Shown here in pieces: positions 2,546 to 28,459 of a stretch of DNA of 37,591 nt. The notes beneath the pieces are model-generated. The model made no database searches, was not told the DNA's origin, and was given only the letters and a program-made list of their open reading frames with translations. The position numbers were made by a program, and so were the translations under genes. The first letter of the stretch is position 1. The number at the start of each line of letters is the position of its first letter. The DNA comes from Chloroflexi bacterium OHK40 (lineage in GTDB: Bacteria; Chloroflexota; Chloroflexia; Chloroflexales; Chloroflexaceae), in assembly GCA_004367505.1 (NCBI GenBank), contig SFCB01000200.1:1-37591 (forward strand). The letters are read 5' to 3'.

Positions 2546-3475
2546 CTACCGGCTCCACTCCAGGGCCTGGCGAAGCTCGCGTTCCCAGTCGACCTGGTGG
2601 TAGTTGGTGTGGTTGAGCACGAATGAGCGGTAGCTATCGCCGTGGCGGAAACGGCTGTCCACCTCGACCAGTACCCCCGTATCGGTGGGGCGCGTGACGA
2701 AACTCACTTCGAGCTGCTTGATCCCGGTATTGCGCCCGTAGGCCTCGCGGTACTCCAGCTCCTGGTAGCAGCCGATGGTGGACTGGAAGCCGCCACCGCG
2801 CAGCGTTCCCCGCTCGACATCGGCCGATCGGAGCACGAAACCCAGGTTCTCCAGGGCGGCCATGAAGCGCAGCATCGGCGCGGTGGGACGCACCGTAAGC
2901 ATATCGCGGTCGCTGGAATCGACACCGTTGTCGATATCGAGACCGGTGTGGAGCCAGACCTTCGTACTGTTTCGCACGCTCGTGGGCATCACGCTCCAAG
3001 CCGAGCTATCTTCTTTGCCCTCGAACGAGCCATTGCCGCCGCTGCCCTTGCCCACGCCCCCGAGCGAGCCATTGCCGCCGCTGCCCTTGCCCAAGGCGCT
3101 GGTGGACGAGCCCCAACGAGCGCCCTGCTGGCCGTCGGGCTGAAAGCCTGGGCGGGGCAGATCAGTGATCGGCGTCTCGAGATGGACCAGGATGGTGAAG
3201 GGGAAGCTCAGTTGCTCGCCGGCGCGGATAGTGAAGCTGCGGGCGAGGGGTGCACGGCTGATGATGAACGGCTGGCGAAACTTCTTGCTGCCGTGCTCAA
3301 CCTCGGATTCTGTCATCAGAAACAGACTGAGCTCGTCGATCTCCTGGTTGGCGTTGCCACCGCGAACCACCACCTCGCCACTCAGTTGCTCGCCAGGGCT
3401 GACGAGCGTGTTGTGGAGCCTGGTAGCAACCTCGGCAGAGCCGATACCCAGCGGGGCCAAAAGTTTCTTGATCAT
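2546..3475 (-). CDS. Spo0M-like sporulation-control family protein
   Basis: A 309-residue protein of the Spo0M family (arrestin-like beta-sandwich fold). Despite the name, members occur in many non-sporulators and their molecular role is poorly defined. Seen: the family N-terminus MIKKLLAPLGIGSAEVATRL, LVSPGEQLSGEVVVRGG, and a C-terminal half with TGVLVEVDSRFRHGD. A Gly/Ser/Asn-rich insert of two 13-residue repeats (GKGSGGNGS core) splits the two halves. The start at 3475 is preferred over the in-frame ATG at 3481 because AGGAGG (3482-3487 on this strand) directly abuts 3481 but is six bases from 3475. It is monocistronic with its own terminator, and its upstream region is unusually AT-rich. 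Confidence 0.85.
   Translation of the reverse strand: MIKKLLAPLGIGSAEVATRLHNTLVSPGEQLSGEVVVRGGNANQEIDELSLFLMTESEVEHGSKKFRQPFIISRAPLARSFTIRAGEQLSFPFTILVHLETPITDLPRPGFQPDGQQGARWGSSTSALGKGSGGNGSLGGVGKGSGGNGSFEGKEDSSAWSVMPTSVRNSTKVWLHTGLDIDNGVDSSDRDMLTVRPTAPMLRFMAALENLGFVLRSADVERGTLRGGGFQSTIGCYQELEYREAYGRNTGIKQLEVSFVTRPTDTGVLVEVDSRFRHGDSYRSFVLNHTNYHQVDWERELRQALEWSR
3026..3093 (-). repeat. 39-bp tandem repeat coding a Gly/Ser linker
   Basis: A 29-base identical core occurs at 3026-3054 and 3065-3093, a period of 39 bases or 13 codons. It encodes two GKGSGGNGS units inside the Spo0M-like protein. In-frame tandem repeats of this kind can change copy number by slippage, so linker length may vary between strains (inference). 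Confidence 0.85.
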
Positions 3476-3789
3476 CGACATCCTCCTCGATGTGTGTTTG
3501 TAGCGGGTCTTGAACGCCCACTCGAAACAAAATATACATGCAGAGATATGGATGCGGCAGGGGAAAAGATGTCGTTACAGCCATGGGATTTATTCACCAC
3601 TCAAAATACAACGACCTCTCGTATGACCATATTCCGAACATACTCTTTCCATAAATAGTGAGCGCAGATAAGCCAAATATGAGCGTTTAATGAGTTTTGT
3701 GCTGCAAATGGTCTCTATACCGGAAGAATGTCCCTGTCAGGACAGGATAAAATCATCTATGTATGCCTACTCATCGATGATATCGTAAA
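3476..3789. other. AT-rich intergenic region between divergent transcription units
   Basis: 314 bases without a credible gene, visibly richer in A/T than anything else in the window (for example around 3525-3780). It must hold the promoters for Spo0M (minus) and for the riboswitch-pst unit (plus). A TATATT hexamer at 3531-3536 on the minus strand is a possible -10 for Spo0M but has no good -35. A 10-base palindrome TCATCGATGA lies at 3771-3780. Confidence 0.6.
3733..3753 (+). promoter_or_regulatory. Possible operator palindrome and -10 box for the pst leader
   Basis: The inverted repeat CCTGTC-AG-GACAGG (3733-3746) is followed at once by TAAAAT (3748-3753), which resembles a -10 element reading into the riboswitch. 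No convincing -35 was found. A palindrome here could bind a repressor or activator. Weak evidence. Confidence 0.3.
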
Positions 3790-3924
3790 GGTGCGAAGCG
3801 GGGAGTAGCCGCTCACAAAGTGAGTTGGCCAGCCGTCACTACGGGGCAACCCCGGCTGGTCACACGGGCTGCGCGCCCAGGGGCGAGACCGACGACAGCA
3901 CTGTCGTGGTCTCGCCCTTTTGTC
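3790..3924 (+). promoter_or_regulatory. yybP-ykoY-type (Mn2+) riboswitch with terminator platform
   Basis: The leader carries the two hallmark boxes of the yybP-ykoY RNA family: GGGGAGTAGC (3800-3809) and GGCGAGACC (3882-3890). Between them are three helices: CTCAC/GTGAG (3812-3816, 3820-3824); CCAGCC/GGCTGG (3829-3834, 3854-3859), with CGTCA next to its 5' arm; and GGGC/GCCC near 3865-3878. Known members bind Mn2+ in the L1-L3 pocket. The GGCGAGACC box can pair instead with GGTCTCGCC downstream, forming a terminator. This implies Mn2+ stabilises the aptamer and turns the downstream genes on. The downstream genes (small membrane protein, pstC, pstA) are not usual targets. Confidence 0.82.
3881..3924 (+). 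terminator. Riboswitch-controlled intrinsic terminator
   Basis: GGGCGAGACC (3881-3890) pairs with GGTCTCGCCC (3908-3917), continued by ACGACA (3892-3897) with TGTCGT (3902-3907) and a four-base loop, and followed by TTTTGTCT. The 5' arm contains the aptamer's GAGACC box, so aptamer and terminator exclude each other. Confidence 0.85.
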
Positions 3925-3967: not shown

Positions 3968-4324
3968 ATGAACAGCACCATGATGGCCGGCACGGCGCTG
4001 ACTGTTCTTGGCCTCGGCGGGGTGATCGCGACAGGGGCGGTGACCGCCGCGATACCGGCGGTGTTCGGGCTGATCATGCTCGGCCTTGGGGCGCTGCTGC
4101 GGCGGCAGGAGCGAGCACGAGTCGTGGGCTGGACAGCTTTTGGCGTTGCCCTGCTGGGGCTGCTCGCCCCCCTTGGCAACCTGGGGCGCGTCCTGAGCGA
4201 AGGGCCTTTTGTGCTCAACGCCGCTAGCTTCGCCAACATCGCCATGGCTCTGATCTGCGGCCTCTACCTCGCCCTCTGGAGCCGGGAGCGCACGAGCGCC
4301 GACCGGAGCGGCGCCGCGCGCTAG
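3968..4324 (+). CDS. Small four-helix membrane protein
   Basis: A 118-residue integral membrane protein that I do not recognise. Four hydrophobic segments are visible at about residues 5-24, 28-44, 57-75 and 90-108, with an RRQER charged turn after the second. The ATG at 3968 has AAAGG about seven bases upstream. It is the first gene after the riboswitch terminator and ends 25 bases before pstC, so it is probably co-transcribed with the permease genes and under the same Mn2+ control. It could be an accessory subunit of the permease or an independent metal-responsive membrane protein. No function is assigned. Confidence 0.7.
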   Translation: MNSTMMAGTALTVLGLGGVIATGAVTAAIPAVFGLIMLGLGALLRRQERARVVGWTAFGVALLGLLAPLGNLGRVLSEGPFVLNAASFANIAMALICGLYLALWSRERTSADRSGAAR

Positions 4325-4349: not shown

Positions 4350-5282
4350 GTGCTTGAACAGTCTGTTACCACCGCCGGCACGCGTGCGCTCACCCGCCGC
4401 CGGCAGTTTGCCGGCCCGCTCGCCGAGGCCCTGTTCTTCGCGTGCGCGGCCCTGGCCATCGTCACCTCGATCGGCATTGTCGCAGTGCTCGTCACCGAGG
4501 CACTGCCGTTCTTTCGCAGCGAGGGCGTGAGCCTGCTTTCCTTCCTCACCGGCACCCAGTGGGCGCCGATGATCGGGCGCTTCGGCGTGCTGCCACTGGT
4601 GACCGCCACAGTGGTGATCAGCGCCATCGCTATGCTCGTCGCCACGCCCCTGGGTCTGGGTGCTGCCATCTACCTGAGCGAGTACGCTGCACCGCAGGCC
4701 CGCCAGATCCTGAAGCCCACCCTGGAGTTGCTCGCCGGCGTGCCCACAATCGTCTTCGGCTATTTCGCGATCACCCTGCTCAGCCCGACCTTGCAGGCCG
4801 CCTTCACCCCGGAGCGAGTCTCGATCTACAACATGGCCGCTGCCGGCCTCGCCATGGGTCTGATGCTCACGCCCCTGGTGGCTTCGATGAGCGAGGACGC
4901 CCTGCGGGCCGTACCCCGCTCGCTGCGCGAGGGCAGCGCCGCCCTGGGTGCGACGAATCTGGAGACGACCCTGTTTGTCGTGCTGCCCGCCGCCCTCTCG
5001 GGCATCGTCGCCTCGCTCATCGTTGCCCTCTCGCTAGCCATTGGTGAGACCACCATCGTCTCCATCGCTGCGGGCGCCGGGCCGAACCTCACCCTCAACC
5101 CGCTGGCGTCGGCCGAGACGATGACCGGCCATATCGCCCGGATCGCTGGCGGTGACCTGAGCCACGGCAGCGTCGATTACCTGAGCATCTTCGCCATCGG
5201 GCTCTTGCTGTTTGTGATCACCCTCACGCTGAACCTGGCGAGCCAGGCGATCGTGCGGCGCTTCCGCGAGGTCTACGAATGA
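4350..5282 (+). CDS. pstC: Phosphate ABC transporter permease PstC
   Basis: A 310-residue inner-membrane permease that pairs with PstA to import phosphate using PstS and the PstB ATPase. Six hydrophobic segments fit the family. The ABC permease coupling loop is at about residues 180-205 (EDALRAVPRSLREGSAALGA), and the segment LLAGVPTIVFGYFAI is typical of PstC/PstA. GTG start at 4350, with GGGAGG six bases upstream. The stop overlaps the pstA start by four bases (ATGA), showing translational coupling. Oddities: pstS and pstB are not in the window, and the operon leader is a putative Mn2+ riboswitch. Confidence 0.9.
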   Translation: MLEQSVTTAGTRALTRRRQFAGPLAEALFFACAALAIVTSIGIVAVLVTEALPFFRSEGVSLLSFLTGTQWAPMIGRFGVLPLVTATVVISAIAMLVATPLGLGAAIYLSEYAAPQARQILKPTLELLAGVPTIVFGYFAITLLSPTLQAAFTPERVSIYNMAAAGLAMGLMLTPLVASMSEDALRAVPRSLREGSAALGATNLETTLFVVLPAALSGIVASLIVALSLAIGETTIVSIAAGAGPNLTLNPLASAETMTGHIARIAGGDLSHGSVDYLSIFAIGLLLFVITLTLNLASQAIVRRFREVYE

Positions 5283-6493
5283 GTGCACCGCCAGTCGAAC
5301 ACTACGATCCTTGGGCCGGCGCTACCGCCCGCCGGGACGCCTACCGGCGCCTGCTCAACAGCGGTGGCCGCGTCGCGTTCGCAGGCTGCATCGGCGTAGC
5401 TCTCCTCGCCCTTGCGCTTTTGCTCGGCAACATCGTCAGCGAGGCCTTCGGCCTGGTGGCCACCGTCGACGAACGAGACCGTGACGGGCTCGTGGAAGGG
5501 CGCGCTTTCACGGAGCTGAGCCGCGAGGATCTGGCCAGGCTGTTGCGACAGGAGCTGTCGGCGGGCGGTCTGACGCGACTGGAGGAGGAGCGACCGCTGG
5601 AGGAGCGCAGCCTCGACGACCTGCGGGCCCTCGTGCTCGCGCGGATCGTCGAGCCCGACGTGGTAGGCGTGTGGCCGCTCCACGAGTCGCTGCTGCGACG
5701 TGATGCGATCACCGCCGAGGTCGCCGCCGAGGAGCCGGGGGCACGGCTGGAATTCCGGTCGTGGCTGAACTGGCAGTTCCTTACCAGCCCAATGGCGAGC
5801 GAGCCCCTGGAGGCCGGCATTCGCACCGCCATTCTCGGCACGCTCTGGGTGGTGAGCATCGCCGTGCTAGTGGCCGTGCCCCTCGGTGTCGCCGCCGCCA
5901 TCTACCTGGAGGAGTTTGCCCGCAACACACGGACGACGCGACTTTTGCGCGCCTGCATCACCAACCTGGCGGGGGTGCCCTCGATCATCTACGGCATGCT
6001 AGGGCTAGTAGTCTTCGTGCGCTGGGGCGAGGCCCTGACCGGCGGACGCAGTATTCTGGCGGCGGCCCTGGCCCTGGCGCTGCTACTGCTGCCGATCGTC
6101 ATTATCAACGCCCAGGAGGCGATCCGCGCCGTGCCGCGCTCGGTGCGCGAGGCAAGCATGGCCTTGGGCGCGTCGCCACTCTACACCGTCTGGCATATCG
6201 TCCTGCCCGCAGCGCGGCCCGGCATCCTGACCGGGACGATCCTGGCCATGTCGCAGGCTATCGGCGAGACGGCCGTACTGATCGCCGTGGGCGCGGCGAC
6301 CTTTATCGCCTTCGATCCGAGCGGGCCGCACTCGGCCTTCACCGTGCTGCCCATCCAGATCTTCAACTGGACCTTGCGGCCCCAGGAGGAGTTCCGCCAC
6401 CTGGCTGCAGCGGCGATCCTGGTGCTCCTGGCGCTGCTGCTGAGCCTCAACGCCGTGGCAATCGCCCTGCGCGCCCGGCTGCGGGGGGAGTGA
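5279..6493 (+). CDS. pstA: Phosphate ABC transporter permease PstA (long form)
   Basis: A 404-residue permease partner of PstC. The C-terminal 240 residues show the PstA core: the LGTLWVVSIAVLVAVPLGVA helix, NLAGVPSIIYGMLGL, and the coupling loop EAIRAVPRSVREASMALGA. PstA is usually nearer 280-300 residues. The excess is a charged block of about 105 residues (roughly 60-165, rich in Arg/Glu/Leu) after the first membrane helix, probably on the extracytoplasmic face. The start overlaps the pstC stop. The gene ends at a strong terminator facing the phosphatase gene. Confidence 0.88.
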   Translation: MSAPPVEHYDPWAGATARRDAYRRLLNSGGRVAFAGCIGVALLALALLLGNIVSEAFGLVATVDERDRDGLVEGRAFTELSREDLARLLRQELSAGGLTRLEEERPLEERSLDDLRALVLARIVEPDVVGVWPLHESLLRRDAITAEVAAEEPGARLEFRSWLNWQFLTSPMASEPLEAGIRTAILGTLWVVSIAVLVAVPLGVAAAIYLEEFARNTRTTRLLRACITNLAGVPSIIYGMLGLVVFVRWGEALTGGRSILAAALALALLLLPIVIINAQEAIRAVPRSVREASMALGASPLYTVWHIVLPAARPGILTGTILAMSQAIGETAVLIAVGAATFIAFDPSGPHSAFTVLPIQIFNWTLRPQEEFRHLAAAAILVLLALLLSLNAVAIALRARLRGE

Positions 6494-6506: not shown

Positions 6507-6554
6507 GTGAAAGAGGGTTCGGGGAGGGCATGTCCTCCCCGAACCCTCTTTCAC
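6507..6554. terminator. Bidirectional terminator, 21-bp perfect stem
   Basis: The arms at 6507-6527 and 6534-6554 are perfectly complementary over 21 bases (GTGAAAGAGGG... with ...CCCTCTTTCAC), loop GCATGT. The arm ends supply CTTTC-type U tracts on both strands. It separates convergent pstA and the phosphatase gene. Confidence 0.9.
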
Positions 6555-6581
6555 TTCGCCGCAAGCGCGGCCTGCGAACCT

Positions 6582-8153
6582 TTAGCGATCGGGAGCGACG
6601 CGGCCGACGCCGTCGGGCAGGCCGCGGCCAAAGAGGGTCAGGTACGACATGCGGTAGACATCTGTGCTGTCGAAGCGGCCCGCGAAGGTGCTCAGCAGCA
6701 GCTCCGCGTTGCGGCCCTGGGCTCGCGAGATGATGCCACCCGCAGTGTCGGGCTGTCCGGTCCACTTCACGGCGAACATCATCGTCGTGCCCATTGCGTC
6801 GGGGGCGGTGGCGAAGGGATGTGTGCCGCGGCCGTAGTGACCGTCCATCGGGAAGTTCATGTTCTGGGCTCGGTCGCCCGTCGGGTTGCCGCCGACCGTT
6901 GTCACATTGCCGGCCTCGTCCGTGTTGAATGGGCTGACGATCTGCATGCCGCCCGCGTCGCTGTCGGCGGCTGTGAGGATCAGGGTGTTCCGCGCGAGAC
7001 CCTGGAAGACTTGCGCGGCGCCAATCGTCTCGTCAGCGTGGCGCAGTGCGGTCAGGGTGCCAATGGCGTTGTTCTGGTTGCCGAAGTTGTCGGTGCTTTC
7101 AATCTCGCTGACGAGCAGGAACGGACGGCCGGCGGTCTGGCTACGACGCTCGAGGATTGCCAGGGCCATAGTTGTCAACTCGGCAGCCGTGGGCGGGTTG
7201 AAGCCGAGCGTGCCGGGCCGGTCGCCGAAGAGCACCAGGTTGCTGCGCTTGTCCGAGACAGGAATGGCCGGATTCACCAGGCCAAGGCTGATCAGGCGCT
7301 CTTCGGGCACATCGTTGAAGATGTCGTCGGCGGCGAAGAGCCCGAGGACTTTGGGCGTGAAGGCGCGGTCGCTCTGGATGCGCTGCCAGAGGGCGTCGAA
7401 CTCGGCGCGGGTGCGAATCACCGTCCAGCCGTCGGCCTCGGCCTCGCGGAGCAGATTGCGGCCATCCTCGCGGCTGGCCGTTGCGCCGGTGACCGGGTCA
7501 ACGTGGACCGCGCAGTCGAGGGTGATGGCGTTGGCGCAGCGGGGCGTGCCCTTGGGCAGGAAGAAGGCCTCGCCGCCACCCAGGATGACGGCAGGGTCGG
7601 GGTCGTTCATACCGGGACGTCCGGCCAGCATCTGGAGGACGATCTCGGTGCTGTCATCACGATTGCCGACCTCGGCGAGATAGGCCCCCGTGCCGGGCTC
7701 GGCCACGTCACCATCATTGACCACGCCGACCGGATGCCCGACCGCGGCGGCCTCGCGCATAATGCTGCCGCCGAAACCCGAGAGTGCGCGGATTGCGCGC
7801 GCCTCCTCCTCAGCGCCGTCCTGGCCGAAGGAGCCCAGACCGTCGACCTTGTAGCCGAAAGCGTGGACAGTTGCGCCACCGTTCGAAGTGCCGGTGAGCT
7901 GGTTGGACATATGGCCGCGGTACAACGCCATGTACGGCAGTTGATCCCAGCGGCTGAGGGCGTCGGGGCCGTTCCAGTACATCCTCGCGGCCGCCCAGTG
8001 GTTCGGGCCGGCGCCGTCAGGGTGGATGAAGATCACGTTGCCAGTGGGGTAGCGCTGCTGCAGTGGCGGCACGAAGGTCGTGGCGGCCACAGTCGAGACG
8101 CCGACGGCGGCCAGCACGCCGACGCCCAGGAACCCAAGAAGTCTCGCTTTCAC
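6582..8153 (-). CDS. Secreted alkaline phosphatase-family protein (PhoA-like)
   Basis: A 523-residue exported hydrolase of the alkaline phosphatase superfamily, expected to release phosphate from organic esters outside the membrane. A signal peptide is clear (KARLLGFLGVGVLAAVGVSTVAA). Asp46 in VIFIHPDGAGP fits the first metal ligand, and Ser90 in TGTSNGGATVHAFG fits the nucleophile. SEIESTDNFGNQNN and LILTAADSDAGG fit the later metal motifs, but the two histidines usual in those motifs (H331 and H370 of E. coli PhoA) appear as N and S by eye, so metal use may differ. GTG at 8153 is chosen because GGGAGA lies about six bases upstream and the signal peptide starts there. The gene faces pstCA, which fits a shared phosphate role. 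Confidence 0.82.
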   Translation of the reverse strand: MKARLLGFLGVGVLAAVGVSTVAATTFVPPLQQRYPTGNVIFIHPDGAGPNHWAAARMYWNGPDALSRWDQLPYMALYRGHMSNQLTGTSNGGATVHAFGYKVDGLGSFGQDGAEEEARAIRALSGFGGSIMREAAAVGHPVGVVNDGDVAEPGTGAYLAEVGNRDDSTEIVLQMLAGRPGMNDPDPAVILGGGEAFFLPKGTPRCANAITLDCAVHVDPVTGATASREDGRNLLREAEADGWTVIRTRAEFDALWQRIQSDRAFTPKVLGLFAADDIFNDVPEERLISLGLVNPAIPVSDKRSNLVLFGDRPGTLGFNPPTAAELTTMALAILERRSQTAGRPFLLVSEIESTDNFGNQNNAIGTLTALRHADETIGAAQVFQGLARNTLILTAADSDAGGMQIVSPFNTDEAGNVTTVGGNPTGDRAQNMNFPMDGHYGRGTHPFATAPDAMGTTMMFAVKWTGQPDTAGGIISRAQGRNAELLLSTFAGRFDSTDVYRMSYLTLFGRGLPDGVGRVAPDR

Positions 8154-8216
8154 GGTGCTCTCCCTTCTCCTGCTTGTCCACGGAGACAGGCTTCTCACAC
8201 CTGGCTCCGATCGCCA

Positions 8217-8222
8217 AGTATA
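8217..8222 (-). promoter_or_regulatory. Possible -10 box of the phosphatase promoter
   Basis: TATACT on the minus strand, about 65 bases upstream of the phosphatase start. No good -35 is visible at the proper distance. I saw no gene in 8154-8372. Confidence 0.3.
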
Positions 8223-8372
8223 CTGGTGCGACCGCGCCCGATCCTAGAGGGATGTATCCGCGGTACGCAAGATGGAAATAACACGGTGTAGCCTTCTGTC
8301 TCTCTCGGTGGCAGTAGGATGAATTGCCAGTCATACGGGCTGGTTTGGATGAAAGAGTGCCGGGAGTGATCA

Positions 8373-9007: not shown

Positions 9008-9036
9008 TTGGCCCTGGCCACGACGCCTGCTACACT
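9008..9036 (+). promoter_or_regulatory. Sigma-70-type promoter for the second riboswitch
   Basis: TTGGCC (9008-9013) and TACACT (9031-9036) with a 17-base spacer. The predicted transcription start near 9043 is just upstream of the aptamer's GGGGAGTAGC box. Confidence 0.6.
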
Positions 9037-9039
9037 ATG

Positions 9040-9180
9040 GGCATAACGGGGAGTAGCCCCCCGCCTCAGCGGGGTGAACAGTCGTCACCTCGGCCACCAG
9101 GCCCGGCTGTTCAGGTGCAATGGCATCACCACTGGCGAGACCGAACCGGCATTTGTTGCCGTGGAGGTCTCGCCTTTCTG
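9040..9180 (+). promoter_or_regulatory. Second yybP-ykoY-type (Mn2+) riboswitch
   Basis: It has the same architecture as the element at 3790. GGGGAGTAGC lies at 9048-9057 and GGCGAGACC at 9134-9142. The helices are CCCCGC/GCGGGG (9059-9064, 9069-9074); GAACAG/CTGTTC (9076-9081, 9107-9112), with CGTCA just after its 5' arm; and GGTG/CACC (9114-9117, 9127-9130). The helix sequences differ from the first element while pairing is kept, which is covariation support. The leader ends in a terminator that uses the GGCGAGACC box, implying gene activation by Mn2+. It precedes a site-2 protease. Confidence 0.82.
9134..9180 (+). terminator. Riboswitch-controlled intrinsic terminator
   Basis: GGCGAGACC (9134-9142) pairs with GGTCTCGCC (9166-9174), with an inner CGGCA/TGCCG helix, and is followed by TTTCT. 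As in the first leader, the 5' arm is the aptamer's conserved GAGACC box. Confidence 0.82.
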
Positions 9181-9217
9181 TGTCTCCACGGCCTTCCACC
9201 GTGAGAGGAGTTCTCCG

Positions 9218-10342
9218 ATGGGCTGGTCGTTGCGTCTCACCCGCATTGCGGGCATCGACCTCAAGCTGCACGTCACGTTTTTCCTGATCCTGGCCTTTGG
9301 CGCCGTCGTGTGGGGCGCACCCTTCGGGCTCAACGGCGCGCTCTTCGGCATCCTATTGATGGCCCTGATCTTCGCCTGTGTGCTGCTCCACGAGATGGGA
9401 CACGCCCTGATGGCGCAGCGCCTGGGCATCCCGGTGCGCGAAATCCTGCTTCTGCCGATCGGCGGCGTGGCCGTGCTCACCCGCAGCCCGCGCACGGCCA
9501 GGGACGAGCTCCTGATCGCTGCCGCCGGCCCCGCCGTCAATGTAGCGATCGTCGCCCTGCTGCTGCCCGCCCTGGCCGCCCTGTGGGCCGATGGCGCCCT
9601 CCCGCCTGCGGGTCTGATGCCTGGTGTCGGCGAGCCCGGTCTGGCCACGGCCCTGCTCTGGCTGGTGCAGGCCAACGTCTTCCTGGTGCTCTTCAACCTT
9701 ATCCCGGCCTTTCCTCTGGACGGCGGGCGCATCCTGCGGGCCTGCGTCTGGATGGCCACCGACCAGGTGCGGGCCACTCGTGTCGCCACCGGCATCGGGC
9801 AGGCCTTTGCCCTGGCGATAGGTTTGTTCGCGCTGTTCAGCTTCGACCTGTTGCTGCTCGTGGTGGCCCTGTTCATCTTCCTGGGCGCGGGTGCGGAGCG
9901 GGGCCAGAGTGAGGTACAGTCAGCGCTCAAGGGCTTGAAGGTTGGTGACGCCTATAACCGGCATGCCCTCACACTCTCCCGCGACGAGCGCGTCAGCACG
10001 GTCGCCGACTACATCCTCACCAGCTATCAGTCCGACTTCGCCGTGCTGGAGGACGGACGGCCCATCGGCATCATCACACGCAATGAGGTGCTCCAGGTCC
10101 TTGCACGGGGTGAGGGCAACGCGAATGTCGCAGCGGTGATGCGCCCGGTCGAGCTGCGATTCGACGTCGCGCGACCGCTGGACGAGGTGCGGCAGGTAAT
10201 GGCCGAGCGCGCGGTACGTGTAGCTGCGGTGTTCGACGGCGGGGCCTACCGCGGCCTTGTGAGCCTGGAGGATCTCGCTGAGGCGTACCCCCTGGTGGCG
10301 CTGCGCCGCGGGAACGTGCCCCCGGAAAGCAGCCCGGCGTAA
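9218..10342 (+). CDS. Site-2 protease-type M50 metallopeptidase with two CBS domains
   Basis: A 374-residue intramembrane zinc protease of the M50B/SpoIVFB-like group. The zinc motif HEMGH is at residues 58-62 and the third ligand in NLIPAFPLDGG (160-170, Asp168), both inside predicted membrane helices. Two CBS domains follow (about 241-300 and 306-358), which usually bind adenine nucleotides and gate activity. ATG 9218 has GAGAGGAG seven bases upstream and matches the family start. The 5' leader is a putative Mn2+ riboswitch, and an SPFH protein follows 94 bases downstream, probably in one operon. The natural substrate is unknown. Confidence 0.9.
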   Translation: MGWSLRLTRIAGIDLKLHVTFFLILAFGAVVWGAPFGLNGALFGILLMALIFACVLLHEMGHALMAQRLGIPVREILLLPIGGVAVLTRSPRTARDELLIAAAGPAVNVAIVALLLPALAALWADGALPPAGLMPGVGEPGLATALLWLVQANVFLVLFNLIPAFPLDGGRILRACVWMATDQVRATRVATGIGQAFALAIGLFALFSFDLLLLVVALFIFLGAGAERGQSEVQSALKGLKVGDAYNRHALTLSRDERVSTVADYILTSYQSDFAVLEDGRPIGIITRNEVLQVLARGEGNANVAAVMRPVELRFDVARPLDEVRQVMAERAVRVAAVFDGGAYRGLVSLEDLAEAYPLVALRRGNVPPESSPA

Positions 10343-10436
10343 TTCGGCCCGACGAGCGCGGCAGCCCTTCACGCCGCCGTGCTTCCACTCCCTACTGGTG
10401 GCAATGAAACGGTACCTGAGCAATTAGGAGGAAGTC

Positions 10437-11399
10437 ATGCAAGGACGTGTACCCGCCTCGCCCCAGCTGCCTCGGCTCCCTGCCAATGTTGGCGCCGTGG
10501 TCATCGGCCTTGGCCTGTTCATCGCGGTCGGCCTTGGTGCCCTGCTGAGTAGCATCACCGTGATCCAGGCCGGCACCCGCGGAGTGACGAAGACCTTCGG
10601 CGAGATTACCGCCGTCAAGAGCGAGGGGCTGCACTTCCGTGTGCCCTTCATCACCCAGGTTACGCCCGTTGATATTCGCACCCAGCGCCATGAGAGCGCC
10701 TCGTCGGCCGCATCGAGGGATCTTCAGGTGGTTAGTACCCAGGTGGTGCTGAACTACCGCCCGGATCCCGACCAGGTTGAGAACCTGCTGCGCACGATTG
10801 GGCCGAACTACGTGCCGGTGGTAGTCGAGCCGGCCTTGCAGGAGGCCTTGAAGGCCGCCACGGCTCAGTTCACCGCCGAGGAACTGATCACCCAGCGGCC
10901 CCTGGTCTCTGAGCAGATCCGCCAGGCTCTCATCGAGCGCCTGGCCCCGCGGGGGATCATCGTCGAGGACCTGTCGATCACCGAGTTCGCTTTCAGCGAG
11001 GAGTTCCGTGCGGCGATCGAGGCCAAGCAGGTGGCTGAGCAGAACGCGCTGCGGGCCGAGCAGGAGCTGCGGCGCGCGCAGATCGAGGCCCAGCAGCAAG
11101 TAGCGCGGGCCGAGGCCGAGGCTGAGGCGCGGCTGGCGATCGCCCAGGCCGAGGCCGAAGCCCTGCGGCTCCAGCGCGAGGTGATCTCGCCCGAGTTGCT
11201 GCAATTGCGCTTCATCGAGGCCTGGAACGGTACCCTGCCGCAGTTTATGGCCGGCAACGAGGCCAATCTGATGCCGATGATCGCCCCGGGTGCCGTGCCG
11301 CCCGTGGCTGTCGACGCCGCTGAGGGCGCCGTTCCCGCCCCTGCTGCCGACACGGTCGCGCCGGCCTCGGCGCCTGCCGCCGTACCGAGCGCACCGTAG
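10437..11399 (+). CDS. SPFH/prohibitin-family membrane protein
   Basis: A 320-residue protein with one N-terminal membrane helix (about 19-42), then an SPFH domain (about 43-220: VIQAGTRGVTKTFGEI, GLHFRVPFITQV, VSTQVVLNYRPDP). A long Glu/Ala/Arg coiled coil follows (about 205-250), with an Ala/Pro-rich tail. SPFH proteins form ring-like cages that organise membranes and hold or shield membrane proteases such as FtsH. The ATG at 10437 has a perfect AGGAGG upstream. Its position behind a site-2 protease suggests it scaffolds or regulates that enzyme (inference). Confidence 0.9.
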   Translation: MQGRVPASPQLPRLPANVGAVVIGLGLFIAVGLGALLSSITVIQAGTRGVTKTFGEITAVKSEGLHFRVPFITQVTPVDIRTQRHESASSAASRDLQVVSTQVVLNYRPDPDQVENLLRTIGPNYVPVVVEPALQEALKAATAQFTAEELITQRPLVSEQIRQALIERLAPRGIIVEDLSITEFAFSEEFRAAIEAKQVAEQNALRAEQELRRAQIEAQQQVARAEAEAEARLAIAQAEAEALRLQREVISPELLQLRFIEAWNGTLPQFMAGNEANLMPMIAPGAVPPVAVDAAEGAVPAPAADTVAPASAPAAVPSAP

Positions 11400-11728: not shown

Positions 11729-13132
11729 TCAGCGCCCTACGAGTGGAAGATGGGCGGTGTAGCGCACGGCATCGGCGAAGACCACGCTGCCCACGGGCTG
11801 GTTTTCCCCATCGCCGGTCGCGTAGACGCTCACCACAGCGCCAGGCGTCAGCAGAAAGGGTGGCACATCGATCAGCGTCTGCCCGCCGCCCACCGTCGTC
11901 AGGCGCAGGTCGTAGGTGCCGGGCGCCAGGGGGATCTCGACGCGCTCGCCGTAGGTGAGCGGGCCAGGGGCCACCAGCTGGCCACGGAAGTCGCGCACCT
12001 CTACCCGGCTCGCGGAGCCGGTGGCGAAGGGGGCCGCGTGGGTGATCACCACCAGGCCACTCTCGCCGGGCAGGCCGCCCGGCAGCGGCTCCTCGATGAT
12101 CTCCAGAAGCACCGGCGCGCCGCTAGCGCCACCCCGCGCGAGGGCGGTGTAGGTGCGCTCGCGGACCATCAGCCGCCGGGCGCTGGCCACCTCCGTCGGT
12201 GGGTCGCCGGGCAACTCCAGGGCCAGGGTGTAGTCGCCCTCATCCAGCTGGAGCGTGGGCACGGCGCCGAACACGACGTTGCTGATCACCCGCGTGCCGT
12301 TTAGGAGCACGTTGACGGCCGCGCTACCCTCGGCGAAGGGCGCGCCGTGGACGATACGCAGCGCCACCTGGGCACGCGGTGGCGTGGTCACGGGCAGGAG
12401 TTGGAGCTCGCGCCCATTGGCGCCGCCGATGGCGAACAGCGTCAGGCTCTCGCCGTCGGTGAGCGTCAAGGGCGGTGGGTTGAGCAGCGGCGCAGCGCCG
12501 GGCTGGCCCGAGGGCACCAGCCGGACATCCAGGGGCGAGCCGGTGGGAAACGTCAGGAAGGCGCTGGCCTCGCCGAAGCGCAGGTTGAGCAGGCCCGGTA
12601 TGGCATCCAGGTCCTCCTCGATCACGTCGATGGCCGTCGCCCCGGCGCCTGTGGCGAAGGGCGCGAGGTGGACCACGCGCAGCTCGGCTGCGCCGACCGC
12701 AGGCCGGCCAGGGGTATTGGGCAGCAGCAGGGCCTCCAGGGGAAAGCCGTTGGCCGCGCCGGCCGCTGCGAGCGTGTAGTCCTTGCCAGCCTCGAGCGTC
12801 ACGCTGGTGTCGAGCAGGGGCGTCGCGGCGGCGAGTTCATCGGCGCTGAGGGCCCCGGCGTAGAAGCGTACCTGGAGTGGGCCGGCGCCGACATCGAGGT
12901 AGTCGAGCGTCCCGCCGAAGGAGCGGCTTGCCACCACCACATCGGGGCCGCTGCCGAGGGCAACGGTTACGAGGCTATCGCCGGCGAGAGGCGCCGCGTG
13001 GATGAACGCGACGCGCGCAGGCAAGCCGGCGGGCTGCGCACGGACGGGCGCGCTCCCGCGAGGGGCGGCGAACGCAAAGGTGATGAGGGTGATGGCGACG
13101 ACGAAAAAGGAAGTCACCTGGCCAGGGCGCAT
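11729..13132 (-). CDS. Secreted DUF4397 protein, four repeats (paralogue 1)
   Basis: 467 residues with an N-terminal signal peptide (TSFFVVAITLITFAFAAP). Four DUF4397 beta-sandwich units follow, each opening with a V(I)H-APFA-type motif: VAFIHAAPLAGDS, LRVVHLAPFATG, LRIVHGAPFAEG and VVITHAAPFATG. The domain's role is unknown; it is found on exported cell-surface proteins. The chain ends in AHLPLVGR, a short hydrophobic-basic tail. AAGGAG lies seven bases upstream of ATG 13132. The bases around this ribosome site closely match those of the neighbouring paralogue, so the pair arose by duplication. Confidence 0.85.
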   Translation of the reverse strand: MRPGQVTSFFVVAITLITFAFAAPRGSAPVRAQPAGLPARVAFIHAAPLAGDSLVTVALGSGPDVVVASRSFGGTLDYLDVGAGPLQVRFYAGALSADELAAATPLLDTSVTLEAGKDYTLAAAGAANGFPLEALLLPNTPGRPAVGAAELRVVHLAPFATGAGATAIDVIEEDLDAIPGLLNLRFGEASAFLTFPTGSPLDVRLVPSGQPGAAPLLNPPPLTLTDGESLTLFAIGGANGRELQLLPVTTPPRAQVALRIVHGAPFAEGSAAVNVLLNGTRVISNVVFGAVPTLQLDEGDYTLALELPGDPPTEVASARRLMVRERTYTALARGGASGAPVLLEIIEEPLPGGLPGESGLVVITHAAPFATGSASRVEVRDFRGQLVAPGPLTYGERVEIPLAPGTYDLRLTTVGGGQTLIDVPPFLLTPGAVVSVYATGDGENQPVGSVVFADAVRYTAHLPLVGR

Positions 13133-13295
13133 GCGCTGCTCCTTTGCTGCGGGGACAGACAGCGTGGCGAGGTGTGCGTGGCCACGCCGCAGCCTGGGAT
13201 CGACGGACGCTCAGTGCGTTCGCTTATGGTACGATCTCAGCGCCGATCTGTCGAGGAGGAGTTTCAGGCCGGGCCAGAGGCATACAGACGACAAA

Positions 13296-13352
13296 GAGGC
13301 GCGGGGGCGAGGATTGGTGCGCGTACTGCACCGTTCCCCACCCCCGCGCCTC
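13296..13352 (-). terminator. Terminator of the upstream DUF4397 gene
   Basis: GAGGCGCGGGGG (13296-13307) pairs with CCCCCGCGCCTC (13341-13352), enclosing a GGTGC/GCACC hairpin. Reading the minus strand, the stem is followed by TTTGTC. It lies 28 bases past the stop at 13381. Confidence 0.75.
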
Positions 13353-13380
13353 GTCGTCCGCTCGGGCAGCGACGCTCCGG

Positions 13381-14835
13381 CTAGCGTGCGGCCATCGGAA
13401 TGAAGAGCCGGGTCGTCACCGACTGGTCATCGAGCAGGAGCACCGTCGGGGTCTGGCCATTGGCGCCACCGATGGCGAGCACGGTGAAGGCGCTCCCGGC
13501 GCCAAAGGTGAGCGGCGGCAGATCGATGATCGGATCGCCGTCCGCATCGCCGGCGGCCACAACCTTCAGGTCGAGCTCGGTGCCGCTCGGCACACTGAAG
13601 CCGCTGCGCACCTCCTCATAGCGGAGATCGCCCGTCACGAGGACCGTGCCGTCCTGGCTGCGCACATCCACGCCGCTGGCGGCACCCTCGGCGAAGGGCG
13701 CGAAGTGGCCGATGCGCAGTCGCGCCGTGGCCGAGGGCGCGGCCGTGGGGTCGTCGGCGAGGACGACTAGCTTCAGCGGGAAGGCGCTCGCGCCGGTGCC
13801 GATCGCCACCACGGTGTAGTTCTGGCCGTCCTGGAGCACCAGCGGCGCCGAGATCGCCGGGGTGCCGGTGGCGCTCGTGCCAGGGAAGACCTGGGCGGTG
13901 TAGACCCCCGCCGGAACGGTGGCGTAGGGGCGGACCTCGCCGAAATCGAAGCCGCTGGCGACAACCTGGCCATTAAGCGTGACCGTCACCGTCGCGGGGC
14001 CCGTGGCGAAAGGCGCGGCGTGCACCAGGCGCACCTGGGCCGGGGCCTGGGCCACAAAGGGCAGGACGACGATCGCCGGCGCCTGGTTGACGCCGTCGCC
14101 CACGGCGAAGACGGTGACAATATCGCCGGCATTGAACGTCACCGGGTCGAGGTCGATGATCGCCGGGTCGGTGGTGCCATCAGCGACGACCTTCAGGTCG
14201 AACTCCACCCCACTGGGGATGGTGAGGAAGTCGGTGTTCTCGCCGTAGATGAAGGGTTCAAGCGCCGGTGGGATGATCGAGCTACCACCCGCATCCGGGA
14301 TCACGTCCACGGCGGTGCCAGCGGGGGAGGGGGCGAAGGGCGCGGTGTGTACCACGCGCAGCTTGGCCGAGGCCGAGCCGGGCGGGGTGGTCGTATCGTC
14401 GAGGATGAGCAACTCCAGCGGGTACGTGGCATCGCCCTTACCGACCGCCGCGACGGTGTAGTCGGTGCCGGCGGTGAGCGTGACGGTCTCGGTCAGCACC
14501 GGAGAGGTGGTGTCGGGGATGGGGAGCGTAAGCGAGCCGGCGTAGAGCTTGATCTGGTAGGTCGTGGCCGGCACCGTCACGTAGGTGATCACGTCGCGGA
14601 ACTTCAGATCGTTGGTGAGCAGGATGTCCTGACCGAGCACGGTGGCGACAACGGTGACAGTCGCGTCGCCAGCGGCAAAGGGGGCCGCGTGGACGATCGC
14701 AATCCGTGCGGGTTCACTCGTCTGCTCGATGCCGGGTTCCTGGGCCAGTGGAGCCGCCTGGGTGGCGGCGGCGAGGGCCACAGCGATCGCAACGATACAG
14801 GCAGGTAACAGGCGAGCGAGGGATGGCAGACGCAT
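13381..14835 (-). CDS. Secreted DUF4397 protein, four repeats (paralogue 2)
   Basis: 484 residues with signal peptide (LARLLPACIVAIAVALAAATQAA is split by one polar residue) and four DUF4397 units opening ARIAIVHAAPFAAGDA, KLRVVHTAPFAPS, QVRLVHAAPFATG and RLRIGHFAPFAEG. It ends TRLFIPMAAR, similar in character to the tail of paralogue 1. ATG 14835 is chosen over 14877 because AAGGAG lies eight bases upstream and the signal peptide starts MRLPSLARLL. It is likely a surface or extracellular adhesin-like protein, but no function is known. It is separated from paralogue 1 by a terminator, so the two are independent units. Confidence 0.85.
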   Translation of the reverse strand: MRLPSLARLLPACIVAIAVALAAATQAAPLAQEPGIEQTSEPARIAIVHAAPFAAGDATVTVVATVLGQDILLTNDLKFRDVITYVTVPATTYQIKLYAGSLTLPIPDTTSPVLTETVTLTAGTDYTVAAVGKGDATYPLELLILDDTTTPPGSASAKLRVVHTAPFAPSPAGTAVDVIPDAGGSSIIPPALEPFIYGENTDFLTIPSGVEFDLKVVADGTTDPAIIDLDPVTFNAGDIVTVFAVGDGVNQAPAIVVLPFVAQAPAQVRLVHAAPFATGPATVTVTLNGQVVASGFDFGEVRPYATVPAGVYTAQVFPGTSATGTPAISAPLVLQDGQNYTVVAIGTGASAFPLKLVVLADDPTAAPSATARLRIGHFAPFAEGAASGVDVRSQDGTVLVTGDLRYEEVRSGFSVPSGTELDLKVVAAGDADGDPIIDLPPLTFGAGSAFTVLAIGGANGQTPTVLLLDDQSVTTRLFIPMAAR

Positions 14836-14972
14836 GCCGATGCTCCTTTGCTGCAAGGCAGAGTCGGGTGCCGCCACGTGGCGGCATGTGGGCAGGTGTC
14901 AGGCCTGCAAGTTCCGGGCCGCACCATCCGGAAGTACGGCCACGGGTAGCCGGTGGATGTATCGGCTCGCGC

Positions 14973-16533: not shown

Positions 16534-17496
16534 ATGACGAGCAGCGACAGTCCAGGCGGGTATCGCCCGCGCACCATCGCCAGCGAGATGGAGCAGTTCC
16601 TGAGCGATATCCAGCGTGAGCAGGGGCTCAGCGCAAACACGATCACGTCATACCGCTGCGACTTGCGGACGGCGGCGGGAGCGATCACCAAGCCGATCGA
16701 GGCGATCGCGAGCGCTGACATCAAGGCCTTCCTGGATGGCCGCAACGAGCAGCCAGGCACGACGAACCGGCGGATTGCCAGTATGGGCCGGTTCTTCCGC
16801 TGGGCCGTAAGCCGGGGCTACGCGCTTCACAACCCCGTGGACCAGGTAGGTGGGCGCTATCACGCCGAGCACCGGCCACAGCCGATTGCCAGTGAGGCGG
16901 AGCGCCGGGCGCTTGATCACGCGATCGCCGCGAGCCCTCAGCCTTACCGGCTGATCTTCACGCTGCTGCGCGAGATCGGGATGCGCACCGACGAGGTGTT
17001 GAACCTGAATGTTGGCGATGTGATCCTTGAGCCGGGGCGCGAGGTGCTGCTGGTGCGGGACAGCAAGAGCGGCACGAAACGCATGGTGGTGCTCACGCCC
17101 GACGCGATGCCTCGGAGCCTACGCGGCCTGCGGAGCTGGGTGCGCGATCTGGCCGAGCCCCTGGCGCCCGACACGCCGCTCTTCCAATCCTCGCGCGGGA
17201 ACCGGGCCTCCTACGATACGCTACATCGCCGCTGGGTCCAGGTGTGCAAGCAGGCCAGGCTCGTCGATCTGGAGGACGGCCGGGAGGTGCCACGGTACAC
17301 CCTGCACCACCTTCGCCATACCGCCGCCGCCGAGCTGATCGCCTTCTACCCCGAGCAAGTGGTGCGCCGCATCCTCGGCCACCGCGACCCACGCAGCACC
17401 CGCCGCTATGTCGAGATCGTCCACGCCGGCAGCCATCGCGCCAATGGCAATGGCAGCGGCCACGCGCCCCAGCGACGGGAGCAGCAGGCGTCGTAG
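16534..17496 (+). CDS. Tyrosine recombinase (XerC/XerD-like)
   Basis: A 320-residue site-specific recombinase with an N-terminal SAM-like core-binding domain (about 15-105) and a C-terminal catalytic domain. The catalytic residues are all present: Arg151 (EIGMRTDEVL), Lys178 (DSKSGTKRM), His258 and Arg261 (LHHLRHTAAAEL), His284 (ILGHRDP) and Tyr292 (RRYVEI). A GGAGGGAGGG run precedes the ATG. It could be a chromosome-dimer resolvase or an integrase left by a mobile element. No phage or conjugation genes adjoin it, but a truncated gene lies directly downstream. Confidence 0.9.
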   Translation: MTSSDSPGGYRPRTIASEMEQFLSDIQREQGLSANTITSYRCDLRTAAGAITKPIEAIASADIKAFLDGRNEQPGTTNRRIASMGRFFRWAVSRGYALHNPVDQVGGRYHAEHRPQPIASEAERRALDHAIAASPQPYRLIFTLLREIGMRTDEVLNLNVGDVILEPGREVLLVRDSKSGTKRMVVLTPDAMPRSLRGLRSWVRDLAEPLAPDTPLFQSSRGNRASYDTLHRRWVQVCKQARLVDLEDGREVPRYTLHHLRHTAAAELIAFYPEQVVRRILGHRDPRSTRRYVEIVHAGSHRANGNGSGHAPQRREQQAS

Positions 17497-25875: not shown

Positions 25876-25938
25876 AAAGCGCCACAAAAAGCGCCACCAA
25901 TCGAGCCATTGTCGGGTGCGTCCGGTGGATCGTATAAT
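25876..25938 (+). promoter_or_regulatory. Leaderless promoter with upstream direct repeats
   Basis: TTGTCG (25909-25914) and TATAAT (25933-25938) are 18 bases apart. The ATG at 25946 starts eight bases after the -10, where transcription should begin, so the mRNA is probably leaderless. Just upstream, AAAGCGCCAC occurs twice (25876-25885 and 25888-25897), a possible regulator site shared with the divergent SnoaL-like gene. Confidence 0.6.
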
Positions 25939-25945
25939 CAGGCTG

Positions 25946-28459
25946 ATGAGCAGCGATGCCCCCCAGTTGAGCTTCGGCCAGTGGTTGCGCCGGCGGCGCA
26001 AAGCGCTCGATCTGACCCAGATCGAGCTCGCGGCGCGTGTGCCCTGCGCAACAGGTACCATCCGGCGGATCGAGGCCGACGATCTGCGCCCGTCGAAGGC
26101 CCTCGCCGAGCGGCTGGCCGACATCCTGCAGATCGCTGGCGCAAGCCGCGACAGGTTCGTGCGCTTTGCCCGCAGCGCGCCTGGCGACGGCGCCTCGCCA
26201 GTGCCAGAACCCTCTGTGTCTCCCCCGTCGCCCACACCCGCTCGCCGGCGCGCGCTCCCCAGTGAGCTCACCATGCTGATCGGCCGCCAGCACGCCGTCG
26301 CGGTCGCGGTCGAGATGCTGGCGCGCCCCGATGTGCGCCTGCTCACCCTCGTCGGTCCGCCAGGCGTCGGCAAGACCCGGCTCGCCCGCGCGGTCGGCAC
26401 GGCGATCCAGCAGCGCTACCGCGATGGGGCTTGCTTCGTGGAGTTGGCGCCGCTGCAGGATGCCGCGTACGTCTTGCCGGCAATCGCGCAGGCGCTGGAG
26501 TTGGCCGATAGCGGGGCGCCGCTGCCGCTGCGCCTGGCCGAACGCCTGCGCGGCGAGGAGTTGCTGCTCATCCTCGACAACTGCGAGCACGTGCTCGCCG
26601 CTGCGCCCGCGATCGGCGCGCTGCTCGCGGAGGCACCGGGGCTGCGGGTGCTCTGCACCAGCCGGGCACCCTTGCGCATCGGCGGTGAGCACGAGTTTGT
26701 CGTGCCGCCCCTGGCACTCCCCGACCTCGACCAGCCCGGCGTGGTGGCCAGCCTCGAGACGAACCCCGCCGTGGCGCTCTTCCTCGCCCGGGTACGCGCC
26801 GTTCAGCCGGCATACCGCGTGAGCGAGGAGGGCCTGCGCCAGATCGCCGCGATCTGCCACCGGCTCGATGGCCTGCCGCTGGCGATCGAGCTAGCGGCCC
26901 ACCGGGCCCGGCTCTTCAGCCCGGCGGCCCTGCTGGAGCGCCTCGAGCAGCGGCTGCCTGTCCTGACGGCCGGCGCCCGCGACGCGCCAGTGCGCCAGCA
27001 GACGCTCGATGCCGCGATCGGCTGGAGCTACGACCTGCTCGATGGCCCCGCCCAGCAGTGCCTGGCCCGCCTGTCCGTCTTCGCGGGTGGGGCGACCCTC
27101 CCGGCAATCGAGGCGGTCTGCGGCGCTGACGGCGATCTGCTCGTCGCGGTCACGGCACTGGTCGACCACCATCTGCTCCAGGCCACCTCGCCCGACGCGG
27201 GCGAGGTACGCTTCACGCTGCTGGAGACGATCCGCGCCTTCGCGCTGGCACGGCTGGAGGAGCAGACCAGCCGCGCGGAGGTGCAGGCACGCCATGGACG
27301 CTACTACCTGGATCTGGCGATCGCGGCCGAACGCGGGCTGCAAGGGGCCGGCCAGGTGCGCTGGATGGACCGGCTCCAGGCCGAGGAGAACAATCTGCGC
27401 GCCGCCTTCGCATGGAGCCTGGCCCCGGAGGGCGATCTGGCCCTCGGCCTCCGCGCGGGCGCCGGTCTCTGGTGGTACTGGTGGACCAGCGGCCAGGTCG
27501 ATGCGGGCCGGCGCTGGCTTGCCGAGTTGCTCCGCCAGGCGCAGGCCCGGGGGCTCGGCACAACGTACGACTACGGGCGCGCCCAGCTCGGCGCCGGCAT
27601 TCTGGACTTCTTCGGCGGCGATTTTGCCGTGGCCCGGCAACGCTGCGGTGTGGCCCGCGACCTCGGCGCCCGGCTGGCGGACACAATCACGCATGGCTAC
27701 GCCACCTGTATGCTTGGCACCGTGCTGATACTGGAAGGGCAGCACGGCGTGGGCTACCCCTTGCTCGAGACAGGGGTGGAGCTCCTGCGTGGCGCCGGGG
27801 CGCCGGCCGACTGGCACGTCGCGGTGACCAGCCTGGCCAGCACGCTTCTCATGCTTGAACGGGATGACCTTGAGGCGGCCCAGGGATACGCCGACGCCGG
27901 CATGGCGATCTTCCGCCGGCTCGGCCAGCCCTACGGGATCGGGCTGGCCCACAACTACCAGGGCGATGTGGCCCGGCTGCGGGGTGACCTGGCGAGCGCG
28001 GCGGCGCAGTACCAGGCGGCCCTGCCGCTGCTGCGCGAGGCCCACGCCCGCAGCGAGATCCCGGCCGTCCTCCACAACCTGGCCCTCGTCGTGCTGGCTC
28101 AGGGGGACGCCCACCAGGCCCGCACGCTGCTGGCCGAGGCGTTCGAGCTTCATCGCGAGATCGGCAACACGATGGGCATGGCCGAGTGCCTCAACGGACT
28201 CGCGGCGACACAGGTCGCCCTCGGGCGGCCCGAGCACGCGGCGCTACTCATTGGCGCGCTGGACGCGCTGCTCGCGAGTCTTCGCGTGCCGCTCTTCGCC
28301 GCCGAGCAGGCACTCCTCACCCGGACGAAGGCCGCCGTCGCGGCGCTCCTCGACCCACAGCGCGGCGACGAACAACGGCTGGCCGGCCGCGCCCTGAGCC
28401 TCGCTGCCGTCACGAGCGTTGTGGGCGCCCTGGCTGGCGAACCGGACGGAGCGCCGTGA
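25946..28459 (+). CDS. XRE HTH - NB-ARC ATPase - TPR regulator
   Basis: An 837-residue STAND-type regulator. The XRE helix-turn-helix is at about 10-70 (LTQIELAARVPCATGTIRRIE). The P-loop is GPPGVGKT (137-144), Walker B LLLILDN (206-212), a GLPLAIELAAHRARLF motif is near 318, a winged-helix region follows, and TPR-like repeats run from about 480 to 800. STAND proteins switch on when the repeat domain binds a ligand and ATP replaces ADP. The ATG at 25946 is supported by the XRE domain start and by a TATAAT eight bases upstream. Some STAND ATPases are defence sensors, but the DNA-binding domain favours a transcription role here. Confidence 0.87.
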   Translation: MSSDAPQLSFGQWLRRRRKALDLTQIELAARVPCATGTIRRIEADDLRPSKALAERLADILQIAGASRDRFVRFARSAPGDGASPVPEPSVSPPSPTPARRRALPSELTMLIGRQHAVAVAVEMLARPDVRLLTLVGPPGVGKTRLARAVGTAIQQRYRDGACFVELAPLQDAAYVLPAIAQALELADSGAPLPLRLAERLRGEELLLILDNCEHVLAAAPAIGALLAEAPGLRVLCTSRAPLRIGGEHEFVVPPLALPDLDQPGVVASLETNPAVALFLARVRAVQPAYRVSEEGLRQIAAICHRLDGLPLAIELAAHRARLFSPAALLERLEQRLPVLTAGARDAPVRQQTLDAAIGWSYDLLDGPAQQCLARLSVFAGGATLPAIEAVCGADGDLLVAVTALVDHHLLQATSPDAGEVRFTLLETIRAFALARLEEQTSRAEVQARHGRYYLDLAIAAERGLQGAGQVRWMDRLQAEENNLRAAFAWSLAPEGDLALGLRAGAGLWWYWWTSGQVDAGRRWLAELLRQAQARGLGTTYDYGRAQLGAGILDFFGGDFAVARQRCGVARDLGARLADTITHGYATCMLGTVLILEGQHGVGYPLLETGVELLRGAGAPADWHVAVTSLASTLLMLERDDLEAAQGYADAGMAIFRRLGQPYGIGLAHNYQGDVARLRGDLASAAAQYQAALPLLREAHARSEIPAVLHNLALVVLAQGDAHQARTLLAEAFELHREIGNTMGMAECLNGLAATQVALGRPEHAALLIGALDALLASLRVPLFAAEQALLTRTKAAVAALLDPQRGDEQRLAGRALSLAAVTSVVGALAGEPDGAP

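Follow-up and report, generated by a model that had tools for sequence, protein, structure and literature searches.

The window analysed here, that is, the whole stretch of 37,591 nucleotides, corresponds to the entire contig C89 of the 6.9-Mb genome of Chloroflexi bacterium OHK40. A leader spanning positions 9040–9174 of the forward strand lies upstream of a gene encoding an M50 site-2 protease of 374 aa with a CBS domain (9218–10342, forward strand; Pfam PF02163, E 1.5e-21). A gene encoding an SPFH/Band 7 protein of 320 aa (10437–11399, forward strand; Pfam PF01145, E 1.9e-35) begins 94 bp after the M50 gene. An earlier note on this DNA had named the two products as an M50 protease with CBS domains and a prohibitin-like SPFH protein, and Pfam confirms both identities. 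Elsewhere in the same genome, leaders of the same type precede TerC, CaCA, and P-type ATPase genes. Further along, the window carries two neighbouring proteins made of DUF4397 repeats, with 3 and 4 stretches (11729–14877, reverse strand), a tyrosine recombinase/integrase gene (16534–17496, forward strand), and a MalT/NB-ARC-like regulator with HTH, NTPase, and TPR parts (25916–28459, forward strand).

The two leaders of the window

The aptamer upstream of the M50 gene, a putative Mn2+ riboswitch of the yybP-ykoY type, occupies positions 9040–9146 of the forward strand according to two covariance models (RF00080 and a clade model named R1, described below) and to the MFE fold. Its L1 box is GGGGAGTAGC, at 9048–9057, and its 3' strand is GGCGAGACC, at 9134–9142. 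When folded alone, 9040–9146 is predicted to adopt the known topology of this class, a four-way junction composed of P1.1 (9047–9049/9141–9143), which has only 3 pairs in this leader, P1.2 (9056–9058/9134–9136), P2 (9059–9064/9069–9074), P3 with an internal loop (P3.1, 9075–9084/9104–9113; P3.2, 9092–9095/9100–9103), and P4 (9114–9118/9123–9127). The earlier note had described three helices: the yybP-ykoY fold stands, and the helix count gives way to a four-way junction running from P1.1 to P4. The L3 adenosine at 9087 (forward strand), an invariant alignment column, takes the place of the Mn2+-contacting A41 of L. lactis and A48 of X. oryzae, and L3 of the window reads UCA, aligned with UCA41 of L. 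lactis (mapping from PMC6754395).

Downstream, an intrinsic terminator hairpin followed by TTTCT is predicted at 9134–9174 (forward strand; −28.6 kcal/mol, z −5.18). It shares GGCGAGACC with the aptamer helices P1.2 and P1.1. When the fold is extended by 34 bases, GGCGAGACC pairs instead with GGTCTCGCC in a 9-bp terminator stem, and the terminator is thus predicted to be exclusive with the aptamer, as the earlier note had claimed. Across the clade, a stem of at least 7 pairs with a T-rich tail follows 50 of 81 leaders, versus 1 of 81 when the downstream bases are shuffled. At the other end, a −10 promoter-like TACACT (9031–9036, forward strand) is located 17 nt upstream of the GGGGAG box, and a simple scan found no consensus −35/−10 pair near this leader. 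Among the 81 leaders, TANNNT starts 16 or 17 nt ahead of GGGGAG 46 times, whereas no other position has more than 6 cases.

The earlier note had proposed a search with RF00080 and would have taken the lack of a match above the gathering threshold as a refutation. Taken literally, this test fails, since no match was found in the window at that level: positions 9034–9196 reach 29.8 bits (E 1e-6) against a cut of 45 bits, a score that is a curation cut-off and not a structural feature. This cut is passed in only 2 of the 158 genomes of the class, and leaders of TerC and CaCA genes in the class fail it as well. Since it is insensitive in this clade, a covariance model, R1, was trained on 16 leaders that precede TerC, CaCA, P-type ATPase, or APC genes, with the window excluded. 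R1 gives 71.5 bits (E 2e-17) for the M50 leader of the window and 76.8–86.9 bits for the other M50 leaders. Strong covariation in the 16 related leaders supports the R1 structure: both partners vary in 17 of 29 pairs, and the share of paired cells is 92.8%, versus 77.7% after shuffling and 34–42% after sliding. The L1 box GGGGAGUAG and the 3' strand GGC(A/G)AGACC are invariant columns, both found in the window, and the L3 adenosine is likewise invariant among the clade leaders. Six weak RF00080 matches (L005, L057, L059, L060, L062, and L063), which lack the internal boxes, were rejected by eye. Judged from its sequence, the M50 leader is confirmed as a real leader of the yybP-ykoY type, in agreement with the boxes and the class that the earlier note had given, and the presence of a Mn2+ riboswitch of this type before the M50 gene is strongly supported. 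Most leaders of this type in the class thus go unseen at the Rfam cut-off.

A second putative Mn2+ riboswitch of the same type, absent from the earlier note, is located at 3792–3894 (forward strand; R1 63.3 bits, E 5e-15) with its own predicted terminator hairpin (3880–3918, forward strand; −31 kcal/mol, z −6.7). The first gene after it encodes a 118-aa membrane protein (3968–4324, forward strand) with a weak PspC-TM match (PF22571, 19.1 bits for a cut-off of 27). It is followed on the same strand by the phosphate ABC permease genes pstC (4350–5282; NCBIfam TIGR02138, above cut-off) and pstA (5279–6493; TIGR00974, above cut-off), and Mn2+ control of phosphate uptake via this leader is possible. 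Convergent with pstCA is an alkaline-phosphatase-like gene (6585–8198, reverse strand), overlapped by a longer ORF (6507–8291, forward strand) with no Pfam match. A Spo0M gene also lies near the second leader (2549–3481, reverse strand). The R1 search found no leader for it, an 18.5-bit match at 2412–2463 being located downstream of the gene.

Targets of the leaders in related genomes

The R1 survey recovered about 137 leaders in 85 of the 158 genomes of the class. Targets were tallied for the 88 distinct leaders with accompanying DNA, one of which had too little sequence. The next gene encodes TerC in 31 cases, a P-type ATPase in 19, a CaCA protein in 17, an M50 protease in 5, a DedA protein in 4, and Spo0M or UPF0016 proteins in 2 cases each. 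The single targets are a CDF protein, an APC protein, an Mrp-type antiporter, a NEW3 protein, and the 118-aa membrane protein of the window; inspected by eye, two further targets classed as 'other' are TerC-family-like (L172) and lipoprotein-like (L170). M50 is the fourth commonest target among these leaders.

Direct leader-M50 pairs number five and come from four genera (G000, G031:C133, G029:C586, G030:C333, and G030:C537); in G029, about 340 nt separate the end of the leader from the M50 start codon. All five came out of the R1 survey, which did not use M50 genes as a guide. By a rough estimate, 0.015 such pairs would be expected by chance with close homologues, and 0.11 with any M50 gene. 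The earlier note had proposed a survey of related Chloroflexota genomes for RF00080 matches upstream of M50 proteases. It had also held that M50 genes lacking the leader in close relatives would refute the proposal. Many such genes do exist: no leader was found within the flank read beside M50 homologues of G019, G020, G022, G023, G056, and the f4 genera, and many close homologues have neither a leader nor an exporter gene beside them. Yet the leader-M50 arrangement recurs in four genera, and control by the leader is thus lineage-specific rather than universal. In the M50 tree, the leader-bearing members fall into two well-separated clades, which fits one or several origins. A related-locus search in genome contigs returned two relatives only, and among the best-scoring M50 matches listed for PF02163 across the phylum, CBS-type M50 genes were not located.

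Other members of this leader family deserve mention. The genome G030 carries eight leaders in total, including those of two Spo0M genes that adjoin an M50 copy. At L096 (G030:C537, 743–3915), four Mn leaders are packed into about 3.2 kb, before M50, the two Spo0M genes, and a P-type ATPase gene. In several families, the gene after a Mn leader encodes a DedA/VTT protein (L155 in G030:C405, L152 in G087, and L198–L200 in genomes of family f19), UptA-like in two cases, which may point to a link between Mn2+ and undecaprenyl phosphate or lipid flipping. Unusual single targets include an Mrp/Mbh-type antiporter subunit (L123, G029:C604), a NEW3-domain secreted protein (L148, G030:C651), an APC permease (L054, G056:C5), and the lipoprotein-like protein of L170 (G029:C500).

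The M50 and SPFH proteins and their gene neighbours

The M50 protein harbors the HEMGH (HExxH) motif, the FPLDGGR motif carrying the second metal ligand, and a CBS domain at residues 242–296 (PF00571, E 1.4e-10), and its catalytic residues are invariant across 20 relatives. Solved relatives are SpoIVFB and the S2P of M. jannaschii (mjS2P, PDB 3b4r; E 1.5e-38). It shares HExxH, the LDGG motif, and the CBS domain with the CBS M50 proteases of the mjS2P type, and differs from them in being tied to Mn2+ exporter genes, with a putative riboswitch upstream, a type of control for which we found no description among such proteases. To our knowledge, site-2 proteases with CBS domains occur widely, and for most of them neither an input nor a substrate has been described.

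The tie to exporters is visible in the gene order of relatives. In G059, a leader, a TerC gene, and an M50 gene follow each other, and G063 has TerC-M50 on a contig that starts inside TerC. M50 homologues with 36–39% identity, from other families of the phylum, adjoin P-type ATPase genes: the order is M50-leader-DedA-P-type ATPase in G418 and G497, M50-leader-P-type ATPase in G355 and G485:C10 (with a DedA match also labelled after the G485:C10 leader), M50-P-type ATPase without a leader between them in G485:C65, and P-type ATPase-M50 in G222. Where a leader is present at these loci, as in four cases from family f19, it is located 3' of M50 and would control the next genes, so that M50 there is only a neighbour.

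No terminator-like site was found between the M50 and SPFH genes in the window, and the two genes are probably co-transcribed. The SPFH protein resembles HflK/HflC below cut-off; HflK/HflC and other SPFH proteins modulate FtsH. The Band 7 domain is common to this protein and to the HflK/HflC type; the difference is the M50 gene beside it, an arrangement seen in just two genera. The other genus is represented by G030:C628, where an SPFH homologue with 73% identity follows an M50 fragment after a gap of about 500 bp. Joining this contig (M50 C-terminus and SPFH) to C537 (leader and M50 N-terminus) was tried and rejected; their overlap differs in sequence, and they thus represent separate copies or strains. 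Nine other SPFH contexts had neither a leader nor a close M50 neighbour, except in G040, where a weak M50-like match lies in the opposite orientation. The link of SPFH to the leader and to M50 is therefore weak.

Proposed mechanism of the switch and likely role of the protease

In L. lactis, the 3' strand of P1.1 goes into the terminator unless docking with Mn2+ stabilises this helix (PMC11087558), and in X. oryzae, mutating the L3 adenosine abolishes Mn2+-induced docking (PMC6754395). The Chloroflexota leader shares with these yybP-ykoY RNAs (RF00080; yoaB in L. lactis) the L1 box, the four-way junction, the L3 adenosine, and a terminator that uses the 3' strand of P1. It differs in having GUCGUCA at L3, more G+C, and a sub-gathering Rfam score, and the gene it precedes encodes a protease, where the others have exporters, P-type ATPases, or TerC/UPF0016 proteins. 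Given the terminator overlap as in L. lactis, we infer from sequence, homology, and the L. lactis mechanism that the leader acts by antitermination, as an ON switch that responds to Mn2+. As long as Mn2+ is not in excess, GGCGAGACC would enter the terminator stem, and the transcript would stop before the M50 gene. When Mn2+ is bound between L1 and L3, the four-way junction would dock, P1.1 and P1.2 would retain the GGCGAGACC strand, and RNA polymerase would continue into the M50 gene and probably the SPFH gene.

By association with its neighbours, the induced CBS site-2 protease most likely serves the response to Mn2+ overload by cutting a membrane protein; the substrate could be a transporter of metals, a regulator tethered to the membrane, or a membrane protein that has suffered damage. 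It would act alongside Mn2+ exporters carrying the same leaders. SPFH may scaffold or modulate the protease, which is the weakest step. Overall, a Mn2+ ON switch that drives M50, and probably SPFH, in Mn2+ overload is a likely explanation of the locus. A precedent for proteolysis of this kind is the rhomboid YqgP of B. subtilis, which cleaves MgtE at low Mg2+/high Mn2+ and helps growth in Mn2+ stress (PMC7231995). The likeness to the YqgP-FtsH-MgtE system lies in intramembrane proteolysis linked to Mn2+ excess, presumed in the case of the window. YqgP is a rhomboid that senses Mn2+ by its own N-domain, whereas the window protein is an M50 zinc S2P with CBS, under putative RNA control, and has no rhomboid protease part with a metal-sensing N-domain. 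The metal-controlled membrane-proteolysis module proposed in the earlier note fits the recurrence of TerC and P-type ATPase genes beside M50; its SPFH part is weaker, this gene occurring elsewhere and without the leader in most relatives.

In the main rival, the switch does control M50, and the S2P, raised on Mn2+ overload, releases an ECF sigma factor or another membrane-tethered regulator by classical regulated intramembrane proteolysis, with no part in processing transporters or damaged proteins. This reading should be taken seriously, even if we judge it the less probable one. SpoIVFB, a solved relative, is a known regulatory S2P, and several targets are of an envelope type (Spo0M twice, DedA/UptA-like four times, an Mrp-type antiporter, and a PspC-like small protein), a set that resembles an envelope stress regulon of the sigma-W kind. 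The recurrence of TerC and P-type ATPase genes beside these M50 genes argues against it, and no anti-sigma neighbour was noticed among the minority of neighbours that are annotated. We favour a role in Mn2+ overload, through membrane quality control or transporter processing. On a wider scale, a riboswitch-run Mn2+ regulon of Chloroflexota may extend beyond exporters to the upkeep of the membrane, with the CBS S2P, SPFH, Spo0M, DedA/UptA-like, and PspC-like proteins, and PstCA, with the S2P processing transporters or regulators on Mn2+ overload; this broader picture is tentative, falling a little short of an even prospect.

The signal itself could differ, with a yybP-ykoY fold that senses another cation or cue such as Ca2+ or pH. 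The CaCA and SERCA-like P-type ATPase leaders are common (36 of 88), and the whole class scores poorly with RF00080; given that the L1 box and the L3 adenosine are kept, and that TerC, UPF0016, and CDF proteins are among the targets, we consider this unlikely. Equally improbable is that the leader was shuffled to M50 with no selected role, the protease being a housekeeping enzyme. Leaders are indeed numerous and move among targets, as the eight of G030 illustrate, and many M50 homologues lack one, but the five direct pairs, which are spread over two M50 clades, speak against this reading, as does the fact that in other genera and families M50 independently clusters with TerC and P-type ATPases. 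As to a chance resemblance, in which a G+C-rich hairpin region happens to match the boxes, nothing beyond the sub-threshold RF00080 score speaks for it, and the E value obtained with an independent model, the conserved −10 position, and the terminator make its probability negligible.

A search of the open-access literature found no M50 or site-2 protease named as a Mn2+ riboswitch target; the target lists of Dambach 2015 and Price 2015 are outside that scope. The data support a new kind of target for a riboswitch class that is already known, whose link to M50 is recurrent but lineage-specific, and suggest that excess Mn2+ triggers the cutting of proteins inside the membrane. The range of Mn2+ riboswitch targets would thereby widen from transporters to membrane proteolysis. 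For CBS site-2 proteases, the recurrent riboswitch and the clustering with TerC and P-type ATPase genes would provide a concrete signal, Mn2+ overload, and this clustering also offers a short list of candidate substrates.
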